A DNA stretch of 64,000 nucleotides from Bacteroidota bacterium (GCA_018267655.1 JAFDYB010000086.1:124001-188000), one strand, 5' to 3'; shown: positions 29,997 to 52,247, numbered from the stretch's first letter. Program-made: numbers and translations. The notes: generated by a model from the sequence alone, not told the origin.

Positions 29997-30070
29997 CGGG
30001 GTGTAGCGTAGCCCGGTATCGCGCCACATTTGGGATGTGGAGGTCGTCAGTTCGAATCTGGCCACCCCGA
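29997..30070 (+). tRNA. tRNA-Pro (anticodon TGG)
   Basis: The cloverleaf folds by eye: acceptor arms CGGGGTG and CACCCCG with discriminator A, an anticodon stem CCACA/TGTGG around the loop TTTGGGA (anticodon TGG), and a T-arm around TTCGAAT. CCA is not encoded. The 3' end is the integration site of the mobile element that follows; the gene remains complete because the element restores the tail. Confidence 0.93.
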
Positions 30071-30130
30071 CAAAGAGTTAATCAAACTCGAACGAAACCC
30101 AGTAAATCATACGATTTTACTGGGTTTTTT
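30057..30130 (+). repeat. attL direct repeat, with tRNA terminator
   Basis: The repeat starts with TCTGGCCACCCCGAC, the tRNA 3' end, differs from attR at two bases (AA for TT) directly after it and one T/C further on, and ends in a 12-bp terminator stem (30,095-30,106 with 30,116-30,127, core ACCCAGTAAA) plus T tract. The strand exchange point probably lies in the 15-bp tRNA part or just after it. Confidence 0.9.
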
Positions 30131-30173
30131 GTTTTTTGTACTTCATAATAAATCAAAGAAATCCATCTTAATT

Positions 30174-30305
30174 GGGACTAATTCAGGGACTAATTTAAAA
30201 TTCTATTTTTAGTCCCTAATTAGATGAAAAACTTTGATTACCAAAGGATTCCATCAATTTGATTTAGTTTAATTCGGTTTGAAACAAGTCTTTAAAGGGA
30301 CTAAA
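30174..30305 (+). promoter_or_regulatory. Four GGGACTAA(A/T) repeats, probable integrase arm-type sites
   Basis: GGGACTAAT occurs at 30,174-30,182 and 30,186-30,194, its inverted form TTTAGTCCC at 30,208-30,216, and GGGACTAAA at 30,297-30,305. All lie between attL and the integrase start. Tyrosine integrases with an N-terminal arm-binding domain use short repeats of this kind near the att core. No copy was found near attR by eye. The role is inferred. Confidence 0.5.
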
Positions 30306-30332
30306 TGTCTAACCCTTTAAACATTTTTGAAA

Positions 30333-31592
30333 ATGAGAACAACAAATTCATTCGGTATTCTATTTTGTGTGCGTACACAATTCCAGTCTGAGGGCACCGC
30401 TCCGTTAGTAGTGCGTATTACTGTTGATGGTATCAGAAAAGAGATTTCCCTTAAGAAAAGAGTGCCTGTTGCTAAATGGAACAGTGCAAAAGAAATTGTT
30501 TCTGGTACCGACAACGAAACAAAATCACTTAATAATTACATTGCAGAAGTTCGTACTGAGTTACACAATTGCTATCGGGCAATGCAAATCGACAAAAAAC
30601 TCATTACTGCTTTGGCAATTAAGCAAGCTTTCCTTGGTGATGATCCCAACCAAAAATCACTATTAGATGTAATAGAGTATCATAATAAGTCAATGCTTGA
30701 AACTTTAACATGGGGCACGGCTAAAAACTACTACACAACAAAAAAATACGTTGCTGAGTTTTTAAAAGAGAAAAAAGGCACAACAGATATTTATTTAAGT
30801 CAACTTAACTATAAATTCTTGACGGAGTTCGAAATGTTTCTTCGTAGTCATGTTCCCGGTGAAAATCAAAAACCTTGTGCTAACAACACTGTGATGAAAC
30901 ACATTGAGCGTTTCCGGAAAATTATTTCAATGGCAGTTCGTAATGATTGGTTGAAACAAGATCCGTTTGTGAAGTTTAAACCTAAATTCATCAGAAAGGA
31001 AAGAGGTTTCTTAACAGAAACAGAATTAGCAGTAATTGAAAACAAAGAAATTCAGAATGCTTCTTTGCGCACCGTGCGAGATTTATTTATTTTTTCCTGC
31101 TATACAGGATTAGCATTCGCAGATGCGTATAATTTGAAAGCTGACGATATGAATAGAGGAATTGATGGTGAAATGTGGTTAACTATAAGCCGTCAAAAAA
31201 CAAATGTAAAAGCACAAATTCCTTTATTGCCAAAAGCTTTAGAAATAATTCAGAGATACAAAGACCATCCAAAAGCAAAAGCTCACGGTACATTATTACC
31301 CATGCTTACAAATCAACGTTTCAATTCTTACCTCAAAGAAATTGCAGACATCTGTAATATTTCTAAAAACCTAACACACCACTTAGCACGTCACACTTTC
31401 GCTACAACAGTTTGTTTACAAAATGGAATTTCTTTGGAAGCAACTGCAGGCATGATGGGTCATGCTTCAACACGCACTACTCAAATTTACGGTAAGATAT
31501 TACCAAAGCGCATTAGTGCTGAGATGCAAATCTTGAAAAACAAAATGAGTGATAGCGAGGGCTACAAATTAGGATTTGTAAGGGAAGCTTAA
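30333..31592 (+). CDS. Tyrosine recombinase / integrase of the element
   Basis: A 419-residue integrase of the Bacteroidota type. The N-terminal arm-binding domain (1-about 90) is followed by the SAM-like core-binding domain (about 105-205) and the catalytic domain. Catalytic residues visible: K in RQKTNVKAQIPLLP, H-x-x-R in LTHHLARHTFATT, H in GMMGHAS, and the tyrosine nucleophile in TTQIYGKI (about residue 385). The first arginine is missing: the usual TGLRY is TGLAFAD (about 257). IntDOT of CTnDOT also lacks this arginine, so the enzyme may still be active. ATG 30,333 is preferred over TTG 30,327. It converges with the GNAT gene, overlapping by four bases. Confidence 0.93.
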   Translation: MRTTNSFGILFCVRTQFQSEGTAPLVVRITVDGIRKEISLKKRVPVAKWNSAKEIVSGTDNETKSLNNYIAEVRTELHNCYRAMQIDKKLITALAIKQAFLGDDPNQKSLLDVIEYHNKSMLETLTWGTAKNYYTTKKYVAEFLKEKKGTTDIYLSQLNYKFLTEFEMFLRSHVPGENQKPCANNTVMKHIERFRKIISMAVRNDWLKQDPFVKFKPKFIRKERGFLTETELAVIENKEIQNASLRTVRDLFIFSCYTGLAFADAYNLKADDMNRGIDGEMWLTISRQKTNVKAQIPLLPKALEIIQRYKDHPKAKAHGTLLPMLTNQRFNSYLKEIADICNISKNLTHHLARHTFATTVCLQNGISLEATAGMMGHASTRTTQIYGKILPKRISAEMQILKNKMSDSEGYKLGFVREA

Positions 31593-46679: not shown

Positions 46680-47251
46680 TGTCTATTTTTTTTAAGGTTT
46701 TAAGCAAAAGCTACATTGTCCGTTTCCGTTGCTCATTCTATTCCGCTACTCAACGGGTTAAAAGTATTGTCACACTTTTTGCTGTTTGCACGAGCTTCGT
46801 CACGGCAGCCTCCTTCATTAAATTTAGCCACTTCATTCATTACACTTCACTATCTGCCCGTTGCACTGGGCAGCGTTACGTTTCATTCATTTCAGTCGCT
46901 AAATTTAATGCCGGCTGCCCATAATTTTGCTCGCCTGCTGGTCGCCTTGGGCTGCGGGGCTGTCACAGTTTTTGTAAGAAAAACAAAAACTCCGCCAGCC
47001 CCTTGTGTTTACAACATAGGTCGCCCCCGCATTCGTACCTCATGCTCCCGGTCTCCCACCCAAGGCTCCACTCGCAGGACGGCTCGCTAAAGCTGCACAG
47101 TGTCCGCAAACCGTTTCATTTCGTTCAGCGCGCTTTAAAGAGCGCATCTCACTTCATTTCACTATTTGCAGCCACTCTCCCTCCGCACAGCCGCAGGCGC
47201 TATAACCTCCAACACACAGTGAAAATTCGTAAATTGCACCAATATAATTTT
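46680..47251. other. Structured non-coding block, higher GC than its surroundings
   Basis: About 570 bases with no credible gene; the open frames in it read as low-complexity Cys/Ser/Arg and are in opposite phase to structure. It contains a nested 116-base hairpin (46,804-46,919: GGCAGCC/GGCTGCC, then a 13-bp perfect arm CATTAAATTTAGC/GCTAAATTTAATG, then CTGCCC/GGGCAG) and a second one (46,956-47,002: GGGGCTG/CAGCCCC enclosing GTTTTTGT/ACAAAAAC), itself between CCTTGGG and CCCAAGG at 46,945 and 47,059. Role unknown: an RNA, a recombination site, or a decayed repeat. Confidence 0.6.
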
Positions 47252-48839: not shown

Positions 48840-49262
48840 ATGCTCAAATCAAAAATCAAAACACACAAACTAGGCACTCAGTATGCCCAACCTCATTTTT
48901 TCATTCTAAACAAAGGTCGTAATGCAGGTAAACCATGTACAGAATGTTATACCAACTCATTCGTGTTTCTTGCGGATGATGATGATGAAAGATGGCATTT
49001 TTATTATCTCTGCCAAGCTTTGTGGCAAGGTAAATTTTTCCATTCGCTATTAATTGGCTCAGTAATTGCGTTTATACGCATTGATGAATTCACAATGGCA
49101 CTACACCATGCAAATATTACAATCTCTCAAAATAAGGCAGATTATAGCGAATTCATAGGGTATTTTAAACAGTTGGATGAACACCAAGCCAACCTCGCCA
49201 AACAAATCAAATTAATTCACCAGGTTAGGCAATCAATGGTATATAAAATGCTCCATAAATAA
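48840..49262 (+). CDS. DUF6943-like small protein
   Basis: A 140-residue protein. The N-terminal region has QPHFFILNKGRNAGKPCTEC (about 17-36), with a CxxC pair (CTEC) and a following YTNSFVFLADDDDERWHFYY, then a helical C-terminus with KQLDEHQANLAKQIKLIHQV. Similar small proteins of mobile elements in Bacteroidota are listed as DUF6943; the assignment is from memory. Long hairpins stand on both sides (48,615-48,742 and 49,277-49,444). Confidence 0.6.
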   Translation: MLKSKIKTHKLGTQYAQPHFFILNKGRNAGKPCTECYTNSFVFLADDDDERWHFYYLCQALWQGKFFHSLLIGSVIAFIRIDEFTMALHHANITISQNKADYSEFIGYFKQLDEHQANLAKQIKLIHQVRQSMVYKMLHK

Positions 49263-49276
49263 TGGCAGCTTTTGCC

Positions 49277-49444
49277 TAATTAAATTTTATATGCAAAGGT
49301 AGCAGGTGGGCTGACCCACTTGCCGACACTAATAAAAACAAAAGACTACGGCATAAACACAGGCAGACGCACGAGCTTTCATTTATTCCGTTTCCTTTTG
49401 TTTTTATTAATCCACCTGCTTAAGGTCGCATATAAATTTAATTA
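49277..49444. repeat. Long nested hairpin C, 168 bases
   Basis: Arms pair in order: TAATTAAATTT (49,277-49,287) with AAATTTAATTA (49,434-49,444); ATATGC (49,289-49,294) with GCATAT (49,428-49,433); GCAGGTGG (49,302-49,309) with CCACCTGC (49,412-49,419); a 15-bp perfect arm TAATAAAAACAAAAG (49,330-49,344) with CTTTTGTTTTTATTA (49,395-49,409); and ACGG-c-ATAAA with TTTAT-t-CCGT inside. A local GTGGG/CCCAC hairpin offers an alternative fold. It fills almost the whole gap from the DUF6943 stop to the next ATG. Confidence 0.8.
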
Positions 49445-49446
49445 TT

Positions 49447-49680
49447 ATGCAAAAACATCCACGTATTAAATCCGGCACTAAATCACTCAATTGTCCATTT
49501 GGCAATCAAGTTTTGCTTCAACACATGCCGCTTTCACCTTATGCTTTTAATAGGTATTTGCGCAAGTCATCTTTTCGTCATTCACCTACACCAAGCATCA
49601 AAGTTTATCAGTTGCCCTGCAGCTGCTATGTTTGGGTTTATGCTTCAGGCATCCGTCAGCTTTCAGCATTGCCATTCTAA
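49447..49680 (+). CDS. Small ORF of uncertain status
   Basis: A 77-codon frame with ATG three bases after hairpin C. It begins basic (MQKHPRIKSGTKSLNCPFG) and later turns into a Tyr/Ser/Cys-rich sequence with no recognisable domain. No ribosome site is visible because the hairpin occupies the upstream bases. It may be a gene under hairpin control, a remnant, or not coding. Confidence 0.25.
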   Translation: MQKHPRIKSGTKSLNCPFGNQVLLQHMPLSPYAFNRYLRKSSFRHSPTPSIKVYQLPCSCYVWVYASGIRQLSALPF

Positions 49681-49690
49681 GGTTTTGCTA

Positions 49691-49723
49691 ATAAAAAAGG
49701 GCCGCCCTTCGGGGCGACCCTTT
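49691..49723 (-). terminator. Terminator of the six-gene minus-strand operon
   Basis: An 11-bp stem with one mismatch (49,696-49,707 with 49,712-49,723, core CGCCC/GGGCG) and a TTCG loop, followed on the minus strand by TTTTTTATT. It lies 24 bases past the last gene. Confidence 0.85.
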
Positions 49724-49746
49724 CACTGTTTTTTTCGTTCTTTGAA

Positions 49747-49941
49747 TTACTTTTTCTTCTTAAACCGACTGACCAACCATTTAAGCAACACAGACACACT
49801 GAAACTAACCACAGCCCCTAATGCCGCTAGGACAACTGTTTTTATGACATCGGATGAACCTATATTCACCGCTACGGTTAAGACCGTTCCTGAAACAGTG
49901 CCTAGGATAGTTCCACTTTCTATGTGATAATGATTAGACAT
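49747..49941 (-). CDS. Small membrane protein, last gene of the six-gene operon
   Basis: A 64-residue protein with a long hydrophobic part: GTILGTVSGTVLTVAVNIG (weak helix) and VIKTVVLAALGAVVSFSVSV (clear helix), ending in a basic tail SRFKKKK. The shape, a short two-helix protein with a Lys-rich end, recalls phage holins, but so do many small membrane proteins. ATG follows the stop of the gene before by two bases. Function unknown. Confidence 0.65.
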   Translation of the reverse strand: MSNHYHIESGTILGTVSGTVLTVAVNIGSSDVIKTVVLAALGAVVSFSVSVLLKWLVSRFKKKK

Positions 49942-49943
49942 GT

Positions 49944-50198
49944 TTATTCAGTTCTTCCGGAATCCGCTTTAGTTAATTTCGAGTGCGATTTAATTTCAAG
50001 CTTTGGAGCTTGTCCGTTTTCACTTGGCTCAATGCGCACTTCAATTAGTTCTTCACTAATCTCAGCGCTTTTTCCTGCATCTGCTTTTGTAAGTTTTGAA
50101 CCCGCTGCAATAGCATCAATCAATTCTCCCTTGTCCTTGTTGAAGGTTTTCACTTTGATATCAAAATCAATGGTAGTGATACGTTCTTTTGTTTCCAT
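49944..50198 (-). CDS. Small protein with HU-like and C-terminal KLTKAD(A/S)G motifs (paralogue 3)
   Basis: An 84-residue protein starting METKERITTIDFDIKVKTFN. ATG 50,198 is used because it lines up with its paralogue upstream; the longer form from 50,234 overlaps that gene. Residues 20-42 (NKDKGELIDAIAAGSKLTK, then ADAG) match the first two helices of HU DNA-bending proteins, but the rest of HU is absent. A beta-like part follows (LIEVRIEPSENGQAPKLEIK) and a second KLTKADSG at 74-81 ends the chain. DNA identity with the upstream copy shows recent tandem duplication. Function unknown. Confidence 0.7.
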   Translation of the reverse strand: METKERITTIDFDIKVKTFNKDKGELIDAIAAGSKLTKADAGKSAEISEELIEVRIEPSENGQAPKLEIKSHSKLTKADSGRTE

Positions 50199-50202
50199 TT
50201 CA

Positions 50203-50505
50203 CTATTCGTTATTTGATTCAACTTTTCCCGCATCCGCTTTAGTTAGTTTCGCATTACTGCGAATTTCTATACGCGGACAGCCACAAGTTTCAATTGGAC
50301 CAAGGCAAGGGTCAACCTTAATGCTCACCCAATCCTCAATTGTTCGAACATTACTGTTCTCAATTTCGGCTTGTCGGCCGGCATCTGCCTTGCTTAACTT
50401 AGCACTCGCTGCAATTGCATCAATCAGCTCAGCTTTATCCTTGTTAAAGGTTTTTACTTTGATATCGAACTCAAAGCTCGAAGTTCTTGTTTCACTTTTT
50501 TCCAT
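50203..50505 (-). CDS. Small protein with HU-like and C-terminal KLTKADAG motifs (paralogue 2)
   Basis: A 100-residue protein. Strand FEFDIKVKTF (11-20) leads to NKDKAELIDAIAASAKLSK (21-39) and ADAGR, which looks like helices 1-2 of HU (compare NKxELIDAIA...KADAGRAL of HU proteins). Then SVSI-like strands with three cysteines (C67, C74, C76 in DPCLGPIETCGCP) and a second motif KLTKADAG at 86-93. No DNA-binding arm, no signal peptide. It is tandem with paralogue 3 (four bases apart). Confidence 0.7.
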   Translation of the reverse strand: MEKSETRTSSFEFDIKVKTFNKDKAELIDAIAASAKLSKADAGRQAEIENSNVRTIEDWVSIKVDPCLGPIETCGCPRIEIRSNAKLTKADAGKVESNNE

Positions 50506-50523
50506 TTTTCGCTGTCTAAAAGA

Positions 50524-50763
50524 TTAACATTTACCTTCAATGCCTGCATCAGCCTTAGTCAATTTTGCACCTTCAACAGTTTGAATGTGCATATTGAAAT
50601 CAAGAATGTCGGCAGTTTCGGTTTGCTCTTCGCTAACCTCCACGCTAATCATTCGTGTTAACTTGCCTAATTCAGCAGGTGCTTTGTATTTTGGCACTTT
50701 CGTAGCCTTCACGCGAACGAATAAATCGCTTTTTACTTCGTTCTTTCCACAAGCATTTTCCAA
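50524..50763 (-). CDS. Small protein with C-terminal KLTKADAG motif (paralogue 1)
   Basis: A 79-residue reading from TTG 50,763; the same frame stays open upstream (VIIKIRIT before LENACGKN reads as a strand), so the real start may be earlier, through a rare start codon or by -1 frameshift from the gene before it at a run of nine As. Strands SDLFVRVKATK and MISVEVSEE and DILDFNMHIQ are visible, and KLTKADAG lies at 67-74, as in the two paralogues. It lacks the internal HU-like segment. Function unknown. Confidence 0.6.
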   Translation of the reverse strand: MENACGKNEVKSDLFVRVKATKVPKYKAPAELGKLTRMISVEVSEEQTETADILDFNMHIQTVEGAKLTKADAGIEGKC

Positions 50764-50783
50764 TGTGATTCTAATTTTAATGA

Positions 50784-51041
50784 TTACTGATCTTTTTTTT
50801 TCGTCCCACAGTCTTCCACTGCGGCCTGACTTACCGCTGTTGCGACCGCACCTGCAGTAATGAGATAACCTCCTGCGGTGATGATAGCTGCAGGCAAGGC
50901 TATTGGTGCTGCCACCAATACGCCACCTGCTGCAGCCAATATCAAACCAACAGTACGCAGTTTTTTAAAGAACTTCGGTGTTGGTTCTGCACATCTTTCC
51001 AGGAAATTCATCTCATCCGGATTTTTCTTTTCTCTGTTCAT
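50784..51041 (-). CDS. Small two-helix membrane protein
   Basis: An 85-residue protein. A charged start (MNREKKNPDEMNFLERCAEP) is followed by a Gly/Ala-rich hydrophobic hairpin (VGLILAAAGGVLVAAPIALP and AAIITAGGYLITAGAVATAV, about 31-70), ending EDCGTKKKDQ. A strong ribosome site GGAGG (51,049-51,053) lies right after the stop of the upstream gene, rare in this phylum. A9 in its last codons could allow -1 slippage into paralogue 1. Function unknown. Confidence 0.7.
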   Translation of the reverse strand: MNREKKNPDEMNFLERCAEPTPKFFKKLRTVGLILAAAGGVLVAAPIALPAAIITAGGYLITAGAVATAVSQAAVEDCGTKKKDQ

Positions 51042-51053
51042 AATGCTACCTCC

Positions 51054-51803
51054 TTATGCTACATCTACAACAGTTAATGAATTATGAGCACCATCTTTCA
51101 AAGAATACTGAACAGCGTTCACTTCTTGGAAAAACTCCATTTGTAAGAGAAAAATGTCGGTACCTGCACCCGCAGGAGCACCTGCCGGTGTTAACACTAC
51201 GTTAGTAGGTGCCGCATTTATAGGTAAATTCACAACATTCGATGGTTGTAAATCATATACACCGTTTGCAAAATCCAAACGCAACCAAGCCCCTTTTAGA
51301 GTTACATGCGTAGCTCCTGCAGGGAAATTGATGTGATTTACCGGTTCAAGTGCATTGATGGTGATTACTCCCGTAATGGTATTCACGCTGTACTGCTTAA
51401 ACAAAACACTGCTTAAGATTGCACGCTGATTGAAGTTGAAATTCTTCAACAACGCTTTTGCCGCTGGCAAAGCAATCGCAACACCTACATTACGGTCACC
51501 ACGAGCTGAAGTAGCATCGAGGTTCTTAATGTCGGTCATGATTTTTGTTAAACGAGATACAACACGATTATCGGAAGCAGTTTGCAGCATTGCAAACAAT
51601 GCTGTACGCAGGTTTTTACCTGCTACCGCAGATGATCCAAATTCAGCACCGTTTTCTCGCGTTCTAACGAACGCAGGGTCGTTTTTAATGCGTTCAGCAT
51701 CTACGCCTCCTTTTTCACGGGCCAAATGTCCATCCTGCGTTTTGTAAAAGGATAAATCTCCGATTTTTCCTTTTAGCTTGATGATTCCTTTTTGCCTAGC
51801 CAT
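51054..51803 (-). CDS. First protein of the six-gene operon, unknown function
   Basis: A 249-residue protein from ATG 51,803 (an in-frame upstream ATG at 51,899 would overlap the promoter). Basic beta-like start ARQKGIIKLKGKIGDLSFYK then GHLAREKGGVDAERIKNDPA and FVRTRENGAEFGSSAVAGKN, a helical part (LRTALFAMLQTASDNRVVSR), and beta-rich C-terminal half (HVTLKGAWLRLDFANGVYDL, DIFLLQMEFFQEVNAVQYSL). No signal peptide. I have a memory of similar hypothetical proteins in Bacteroidota but no function; a structural or scaffold protein is one guess. Confidence 0.75.
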   Translation of the reverse strand: MARQKGIIKLKGKIGDLSFYKTQDGHLAREKGGVDAERIKNDPAFVRTRENGAEFGSSAVAGKNLRTALFAMLQTASDNRVVSRLTKIMTDIKNLDATSARGDRNVGVAIALPAAKALLKNFNFNQRAILSSVLFKQYSVNTITGVITINALEPVNHINFPAGATHVTLKGAWLRLDFANGVYDLQPSNVVNLPINAAPTNVVLTPAGAPAGAGTDIFLLQMEFFQEVNAVQYSLKDGAHNSLTVVDVA

Positions 51804-51896
51804 GTTATAATGGTTTTTAAATAAATAATTGATTAAATTTTTGTGTTGCAACACACCAAACGCCACTTTATCGCGAATAAATTTTGTTTGGTAACA

Positions 51897-51927
51897 CAAA
51901 AGTATTTCGGTATTTCTCCAATGGCAA
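51897..51927 (-). promoter_or_regulatory. Promoter of the six-gene operon
   Basis: On the minus strand a TTG (51,927-51,925), 20 bases, then TACTTTTG (51,904-51,897), a match to the Bacteroidota pattern. The transcript would have a leader of about 85 bases before ATG 51,803. Confidence 0.55.
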
Positions 51928-52001
51928 CACAGCGGTTCCGCTCAGTACACTTTGATGCACTTTGTGCCGATTATGTATAAATATGTAGTTGCTAATCTCG
52001 G

Positions 52002-52009
52002 TATCTTTG
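52002..52009 (+). promoter_or_regulatory. -7 box of the small HTH gene
   Basis: TATCTTTG matches TAnnTTTG and lies 38 bases before the ATG at 52,047. No well-placed -33 element. The two promoters are divergent, about 100 bases apart, so one regulator could control both. Confidence 0.45.
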
Positions 52010-52046
52010 CTCTATATCAACCCTATAGATAAAGCATAGATAAAGT

Positions 52047-52247
52047 ATGAGTAAAACAGTTCGGGCATGTATTTACCCTAAGGATGTAATGCGTATAACA
52101 GGTAAAAGTGAAAGGTATGCCCGGAAATACCTCAACGAAATCAAAAAACATTTTGAGAAATCCAGCCACCAGTTCGTCACCGTTAGTGAGTTCTCATCTT
52201 ATACGGGAATTGATATTTCCACTATAGAAAAGTACTTAAACGATTAA
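52047..52247 (+). CDS. Small helix-turn-helix protein
   Basis: A 66-residue protein with a helix-turn-helix in YPKDVMRITGKSERYARKYL (about 10-29) and a second helical part, FVTVSEFSSYTGIDISTIEK. Small proteins of this type next to the att site of Bacteroidota elements may act as excisionase-like or control factors. It is divergent from the six-gene operon and near attR, so it could regulate that operon or help excision. Confidence 0.75.
   Translation: MSKTVRACIYPKDVMRITGKSERYARKYLNEIKKHFEKSSHQFVTVSEFSSYTGIDISTIEKYLND

Follow-up and report, generated by a model that had tools for sequence, protein, structure and literature searches.

Among the closest described systems, H-NST is an island-encoded fragment of H-NS, comprising its dimerisation domain, that antagonises H-NS (PMC7074111), and the SPO1 protein Gp46 is a phage inhibitor of HU predicted to occupy the DNA-binding site of the latter (PMC10753183). 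The locus considered here is an operon of six small genes located at 49747-51803, on the minus strand, of a stretch of 64,000 nucleotides from Bacteroidota bacterium (GCA_018267655.1 JAFDYB010000086.1:124001-188000), the whole of which is hereafter called the window. This operon is the version, specific to its lineage, of a small genomic island carried by Bacteroidota chromosomes, and encodes small proteins in which short segments of HU are embedded; in related cassettes, such segments agree with the HU of their own host. In the HU fold, helices 1 and 2 together with the C-terminal helix 3 constitute a helical base opposite the DNA-binding arms. We know of no earlier description in which accessory proteins of unrelated families bear parts of a nucleoid protein that match the host, and no such use of nucleoid-protein sequence was found in a search of the literature. 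The host-matched pieces suggest a hitherto unreported means by which accessory genes could disturb bacterial chromatin or become attached to it.

The cassette proteins resemble H-NST as island-borne fragments of a host nucleoid protein, in this case HU instead of H-NS, which are devoid of the DNA-binding part and are proposed to act on the parent protein. They differ from it by the choice of nucleoid protein, by much shorter segments, by the variety of unrelated carriers and by their linkage to membrane proteins; antagonism, moreover, is a property of H-NST and, for the cassette proteins, a possibility. The likeness to SPO1 Gp46 is that of an accessory protein that may target HU, but the cassette proteins copy parts of HU itself. 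A further comparison can be made with the phage genes of the DUF5675/phrog_1501 family that lie beside a transmembrane gene. Many core cassettes likewise display DUF5675 followed by small membrane proteins, whereas in the window DUF5675 is absent, phage structural genes are absent as well, and the 249-residue protein that defines the island is unknown from phages. Finally, the likeness to the HU/IHF family (PF00216) is confined to HU positions 1-34 or 63-90. Each cassette protein carries one end of HU, without the beta arms and the GRNPQTG region, and this segment is embedded in another small protein. The window proteins cover HU positions 2-26 only and their relatives 1-34 or 63-90 only, where the family fold spans about 90 residues (helices 1-2, beta arms, helix 3); the GRNPxTG DNA-binding arm is absent from all cassette proteins, and the HU encoded by the same host genome possesses it. 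Lacking the DNA-binding part and the greater portion of the fold, the cassette proteins are not members of the HU family, although the retained segment is homologous to HU/IHF in sequence, with three relatives (L094, L152 and L211; loci and genomes are designated by L and G numbers) scoring above the Pfam cut-off.

Three of the six genes encode proteins carrying the motif KL(T/S)KAD(A/S)G. An earlier note on this DNA had reported five copies, and all were recovered at the residues given there: 67-74 in the 79-residue protein, 36-43 and 86-93 in the 100-residue protein (K100), and 35-42 and 74-81 in the 84-residue protein (K84). The corresponding features of the window are the following.

50524..50763, minus strand: gene of the 79-residue protein (K79 type), TTG start; homologues occupy the slot between the hairpins
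50659..50700, minus strand: degenerate HU C-terminal-like segment KVPKYKAPAELGKL, residues 22-35 of the 79-residue protein, aligned with RFKAGAELSGKVN of its homologues
50542..50565, minus strand: KLTKADAG copy, residues 67-74 of the 79-residue protein
50203..50505, minus strand: gene of the 100-residue HU-fragment protein K100, matched by the HU profile; homologues in the same slot
50368..50439, minus strand: HU N-terminal-like segment DKAELIDAIAASAKLSKADAGRQA of K100, HU positions 2-25, from the HU profile and alignment with host HU
50227..50250, minus strand: KLTKADAG copy near the C terminus of the 100-residue protein
49944..50198, minus strand: gene of the 84-residue HU-fragment protein K84, matched by the HU profile
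50061..50135, minus strand: HU N-terminal-like segment KDKGELIDAIAAGSKLTKADAGKSA of K84, HU positions 2-26, from the HU profile
49956..49979, minus strand: KLTKADSG copy near the C terminus of the 84-residue protein

These five copies are far beyond chance. The back-translated KLTKADAG pattern has nine exact sites in the 3.4-Mb genome that contains the window (five in the operon, one in HU, two in one gene of contig 65 and one in a gene of contig 85 encoding a 252-residue protein), against none for a control pattern. Out of 395 evenly drawn genomes of the phylum, only the window's own genome contains the pattern, and the motif is found in 34 of the 37 genomes of the window's own family as compared to two of 23 others. 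In this family the peptide is also present in at least four unrelated protein families. Codon comparisons between the window motif copies and HU yielded 59 synonymous and 10 non-synonymous cases, and a DNA-level repeat or recombination site was rejected because the copies differ mostly at synonymous positions. No literature on KLTKADAG was found.

In the window's family, the genes situated between the two membrane hairpins of the cassette encode proteins of 80-160 residues that contain HU residues ~1-25, of the form (N)KxELIDAIAxGxKLTKADAGR, often followed by a C-terminal tail ending in KLTKADxG. An HU profile derived from 57 host HUs was used to search 20,737 open reading frames (ORFs); 52 non-HU proteins were retrieved at E<=0.1, all of the HU-fragment kinds described here, and the reversed ORFs gave no match. 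The resemblance to HU noticed earlier proved significant with the lineage HU profile, at E=1e-6 for K100 and E=1.6e-6 for K84. K100 also matched the NCBIfam HU-beta model at E=0.007, under the cut-off of that model. Pfam PF00216 itself detects none of the HU-fragment proteins of the window, and two of their relatives pass its curated cut-off, namely L152 (HU 2-34, two copies) and L094 (HU 1-31). When N-terminal-type proteins assembled mainly by operon position were aligned without regard to the motif, the only nearly invariant columns were K36, L37 and K39-G43, that is the KLTKADAG stretch.

The earlier note considered that the HU piece was N-terminal and that the rest of HU was missing. The first part is retained and the second is incomplete, as related cassettes carry a host-matched C-terminal piece of HU. 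The 79-residue protein of the window itself displays a degenerate version of it, KYKAPAEL (from RFKAGAEL), which had been missed, and has in addition gained a KLTKADAG tail. Its homologues in Crocinitomicaceae, Brumimicrobium, Fluviicola and uncultured relatives carry RFKAG[AS][DE]LS[GS][KS]VN, which is the end of HU, and in the Crocinitomicaceae-type cassettes this other end of HU (RFKAGAELSGKVN) occupies the same slot between hairpin 1 and hairpin 2. These homologues were retrieved by sequence similarity, without use of the motif, and almost all of them nevertheless contain the HU segment; one set of conservation values for this type is biased, its sequences having been gathered with the motif. 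In L211 the C-terminal segment is present three times and exceeds the Pfam HU cut-off over HU 63-90, and the L168 homologue KVPRFKAGPELGKL matches the HU profile over positions 69-87 at E=0.085. A scan of 17 genomes for the C-terminal peptide identified, besides HU, the cassette genes and one 33-residue chance frame. Profile comparison did not detect a fold shared by the N-terminal and the C-terminal type, and the resemblance of their layouts is no more than an impression.

Host matching was assessed on 15 genomes, several of them metagenome-assembled, by comparing the cassette segments with HU tails. The mean identity of the C-terminal segments is 0.867 to the HU of their own host and 0.735 to those of other hosts, a difference that none of 100,000 permutations reached. 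Agreement with the own HU is exemplified by RFKAGAELSGKVN (G489, G490, G491), SELSGKVN (G493), SDLSSKVN (G502), AELTDKVN (G501), AELSNSVN (G496) and AELSSSVN (G499). Because the hosts are related to one another, a partial Mantel test controlled for the distances of both the HU body and the 249-residue protein was applied, and the association persisted (r=0.56, P<2e-4). When the own HU was opposed to that of the host with the nearest 249-residue protein, it won eight times and lost twice. For residues shared by segment and HU, codon identity amounts to 0.464 with the own HU and 0.410 with others (P=0.015), which is nearly randomised. The match is therefore kept at the protein level, since recent DNA copying would make the codons agree, and selection on the peptide is likelier than such copying. 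Chance or incidental likeness to HU was rejected by the HU-profile screen, its reversed control, the host matching and the phylum-wide pattern scan, and we regard it as highly probable that the HU segments are real and selected.

HU peptides are also encoded away from the operon. Proteins of 252-272 residues built of two repeats and recognised by NVANFEDLISF (family Y) carry KLTKADAG, solely in the lineage of the window and a small number of others, in their interdomain linker, which is proline-rich in lineages without the tag. Carriers include L167 (contig 85 of the own genome, 3695-4453), L148, L149, L151, L153, L157, L158, L161 and L164. An identical Y protein occurs in L329 (genome G480) and L148 (genome G409), two genomes of different assigned families, which suggests a recent transfer or a mis-binned contig. 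A second family (X, ~205 residues with an fn3-like C-terminal part) carries KLTKADAG as well, and the small genes located directly 3' of X encode it at their C-terminal end, often as the very last residues (L154, L155, L160, L166). Proteins of ~100 residues with two tandem helix 1-2 units are found in the relatives L152, L306, L307 and L314, and in L152, at least, the gene immediately follows one of family Y; such two-unit proteins resemble a single-chain copy of the helical core of the HU dimer. In contig 65 of the own genome, a 79-residue protein that combines an HU segment of the N-terminal type with a KLTKADAG tail is encoded after an XRE regulator. This locus (L104, 5973-10305) comprises two tyrosine recombinases, a large predicted ATPase/primase-like gene, the XRE regulator and the 79-residue protein, whose two motif copies have identical DNA.

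The remaining genes and signals of the cassette in the window, which displays the island layout from 48840 to 52247 without DUF5675, are listed below.

52047..52247, plus strand: small helix-turn-helix (HTH)-like gene, 66 residues, '..ACIYPKDVMRITGKSERYARKYLNEIKK..', divergent from the operon; homologue in 97/135 anchored loci
51054..51803, minus strand: gene of the 249-residue protein (family name A249), the defining gene of the island
50784..51041, minus strand: membrane hairpin 1, 85 residues, '..PTPKFFKKLRTVGLILAAAGG..'; directly downstream in 83/135 loci
49747..49941, minus strand: membrane hairpin 2, 64 residues, 'GTILGTVSGTVLTVAVNIGSSDVIKTVVLAALGAVVSFSVSVLLK'; kept in 73/135 loci
49696..49710, minus strand: terminator-like stem-loop and T-run
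49447..49680, plus strand: conserved 77-residue ORF, convergent with the operon; same place in 25/135 loci
48840..49262, plus strand: DUF6943 gene, 140 residues, convergent partner (PF22105, E=1.2e-40); 53/135 loci

All six packed minus-strand genes of the earlier description are present as ORFs, from 51054-51803 through 49747-49941, with spacers of 12, 20, 18, 4 and 2 bases, within the range of 2 to 20 given then. The terminator predicted after the operon was found as a terminator-like stem followed by a T-run (49710-49696, minus strand). The promoter-like element was not sustained: a sigma-70-type scan yielded 10 hits where 10.1 are expected from shuffled sequence, Bacteroidota promoters lying outside the coverage of such a scan. 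The TTG start of the 79-residue gene is also used by its orthologue in L169, and an in-frame ATG at 50234 would extend K84 to 96 residues. An RNA family search gave no match in the region. The HTH-like gene product is a putative regulator or excisionase-like protein, with a weak Cox-like excisionase match (phrog_575, E=0.0018).

The order of the island is a divergent small HTH gene, the 249-residue protein, optionally DUF5675, hairpin 1, zero to four small genes and hairpin 2, which faces DUF6943 and the 77-residue ORF on the far side. The 249-residue protein occurs in 31 of the 395 phylum genomes, with up to six copies per genome. Among GTDB contigs, at least 587 stretches contain it, from Flavobacteriales, Chitinophagales, Saprospiraceae and other groups. 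Its neighbours in 135 anchored loci, counted as lower bounds owing to contig ends, are the divergent HTH gene (97), hairpin 1 (83), hairpin 2 (73), the convergent DUF6943 gene (53), DUF5675 (35), the convergent 77-residue ORF (25) and two kinds of small genes between the hairpins (23 and 16); a tyrosine recombinase lies near 12 of them. One copy of the island is carried by a Marivirga plasmid together with an integrase gene. The membrane link proposed in the earlier note is borne out by the joint presence of HU-fragment genes and hairpins in one conserved operon: across the cassettes of many genomes the HU-fragment genes adjoin hairpin 2, nearly always between the two hairpins, so that the homologues are not always found apart. 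In two distant loci, a gene of ~165-173 residues resembling, by eye, an SNase-type nuclease lies upstream of the 249-residue gene (L064, 9513-10034; L318, 9415-9906), and DUF6943-like neighbours are common to both.

The AlphaFold model of the 249-residue protein, which is confident (pLDDT 89), comprises a beta arm, helices and a C-terminal beta-sandwich. Foldseek searches of the PDB and BFVD with this model returned nothing at E<=1e-3, and a sequence search of the PDB was also without match. DUF6266 was rejected as a relative, the similarity being limited to 33 N-terminal residues with a probability of 20%. No literature on DUF6943 was found. The 84-residue protein has a weak match to the amphi-Trp domain (TIGR04354, E=0.005, residues 25-70), to which it was not assigned as it scores 17.1 bits against a cut-off of 31. 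No phage or secretion module was found to correspond to the set as a whole. The 249-residue protein has no match in 50,697 phage records, and its one match in IMG/VR is located outside the Mu-like genes of the contig concerned. K100, L211 and DUF6943 gave no match in the phage searches, and a phage structural module was rejected as phage records, IMG/VR and PHROGs returned nothing for the core or the HU-fragment proteins. PADLOC identified no known defence component, with only weak matches of mad1 to the HTH gene (E=1.5e-5) and of LeoBC to hairpin 1. The cassette is thus neither a known defence system nor a phage module.

One reading, with somewhat less than an even chance of being correct, is that the HU-derived peptides constitute a host-specific address or decoy code, in which either end of HU, borne as a short copy by unrelated accessory proteins of one Bacteroidota lineage and kept in step with the host HU, serves to engage or impersonate it. 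The island core (HTH regulator, 249-residue protein and two hairpins) has acquired in this lineage small proteins carrying HU fragments, either the N-terminal helix 1 with the start of helix 2 or the C-terminal helix 3. Such fragments could occupy the contacts made by these helices at the helical base of the HU dimer and thereby allow the proteins to bind HU, or a protein docking on its base. As a result, HU may be inhibited or redirected, or the island proteins anchored to chromatin, with the 249-residue protein and the hairpins presumably taking part. By analogy with H-NST and H-NS, we tentatively propose, as the likeliest mechanism though at less than even odds, that this helical base is where the HU-fragment proteins contact HU or one of its partners; the use of both HU ends in the same operon slot counts in favour of the proposal. 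The idea of HU-related decoy or tag peptides put forward in the earlier note is supported, while no evidence was found for the delivery by membrane parts that it associated with them. The core cassette may also act on the envelope, as the context of DUF5675, missing here, would suggest.

Several observations weigh against the proposed engagement of HU at its base. Most Bacteroidota cassettes are devoid of any HU fragment, and many copies consist of KLTKADAG alone, in C-terminal tails and linkers, which is too short for domain-swap dimerisation with HU. The structure of the HU fragments is not predictable, the AlphaFold model of the 84-residue protein being unusable (pLDDT 53). Host matching of the N-terminal type is weak (0.729 own against 0.711, P=0.04) and hard to test because HU barely varies in that part. 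In G483, contrary to strict host matching, the Y protein is tagged and yet its two closest HUs lack KLTKADAG, an exception that could be due to recent transfer or mis-binning.

Other explanations account for parts of the same evidence. The cassette might be a phage-derived lysis or release system, with DUF5675 acting on the wall, holin-like hairpins, release of the 249-residue protein and HU pieces as incidental passengers. DUF5675 (PF18925, phrog_1501) is indeed a phage family found beside a transmembrane gene in two Vibrio phages, the hairpins follow it in many cassettes, tyrosine recombinases lie near 12/135 loci, and the Marivirga plasmid copy is accompanied by an integrase gene. We nevertheless consider this unlikely: DUF5675 is absent from the window and present in only 35/135 loci, the 249-residue protein is missing from the 50,697 phage records and has its only IMG/VR match outside phage genes, and host-matched HU segments are not incidental. 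Also unlikely, for other reasons, is a guard or decoy function, in which the HU segments would bait phage factors that attack HU, their binding freeing or activating the hairpins or the 249-residue protein in order to stop the infected cell. Host-matched HU sequence is what a decoy needs, small membrane proteins in many divergent copies fit an arms race, and unrelated proteins of the same genomes carry the same bait peptide; but the core cassettes mostly lack HU segments, PADLOC detects no known defence component except the weak HTH match, and we know of no anti-HU phage protein for these hosts. Phage-encoded HU inhibitors exist, as illustrated by SPO1 Gp46, although the latter is predicted at the DNA-binding site of HU and not at its base (PMC10753183).

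If the segments instead copied HU sites seen by a host protease such as Lon, they would act as processing tags conferring a regulated, antitoxin-like turnover, and the tags in the C-terminal tails and linkers of unrelated proteins do look like degrons. The first Lon cut in E. coli HU-beta presumably falls within the part that aligns with KLTKADAG. Lon degrades E. coli HU-beta, cutting it at 62 sites, but HU-alpha and B. subtilis HU resist this protease (PMC6098112). A processing tag leaves the C-terminal RFKAGAELSGKVN type and its host matching unexplained, and is in our opinion improbable. The least probable explanation, to which we give very little credit, is a repeated non-adaptive capture of hup gene fragments by recombination or as selfish peptide elements, the peptide having no function. 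It would be consistent with HU pieces in several unrelated proteins, some of 28-33 HU residues (L094, L152), and with the slightly raised codon similarity to the own host, but the synonymous sites have diverged while the peptide was kept, and the operon placement is conserved.

The proposed engagement of HU is directly testable owing to the host matching. If true, accessory genes throughout the phylum would carry host-matched pieces of HU, which is among the most conserved bacterial chromatin proteins. Bacterial chromatin would then be the site of a further, new level of conflict or cooperation, and the helical base of HU would turn out to be a hitherto hidden surface for partners. A handle would also be provided for testing several widespread Bacteroidota families whose function is unknown, namely the 249-residue family, DUF5675, DUF6943, X and Y.

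Two further elements were observed in the window. A tRNA-Pro gene (29997-30071) is followed by a tyrosine recombinase gene (30327-31592), and the region 29997-31592 is likely the integration site of another mobile element. In addition, a similar stretch of non-coding appearance (PCVYNIGR.. frames) is located at 46716-47150 of the window and at 5260-5818 of L104, both on contigs of the same genome, and is possibly an interspersed repeat.

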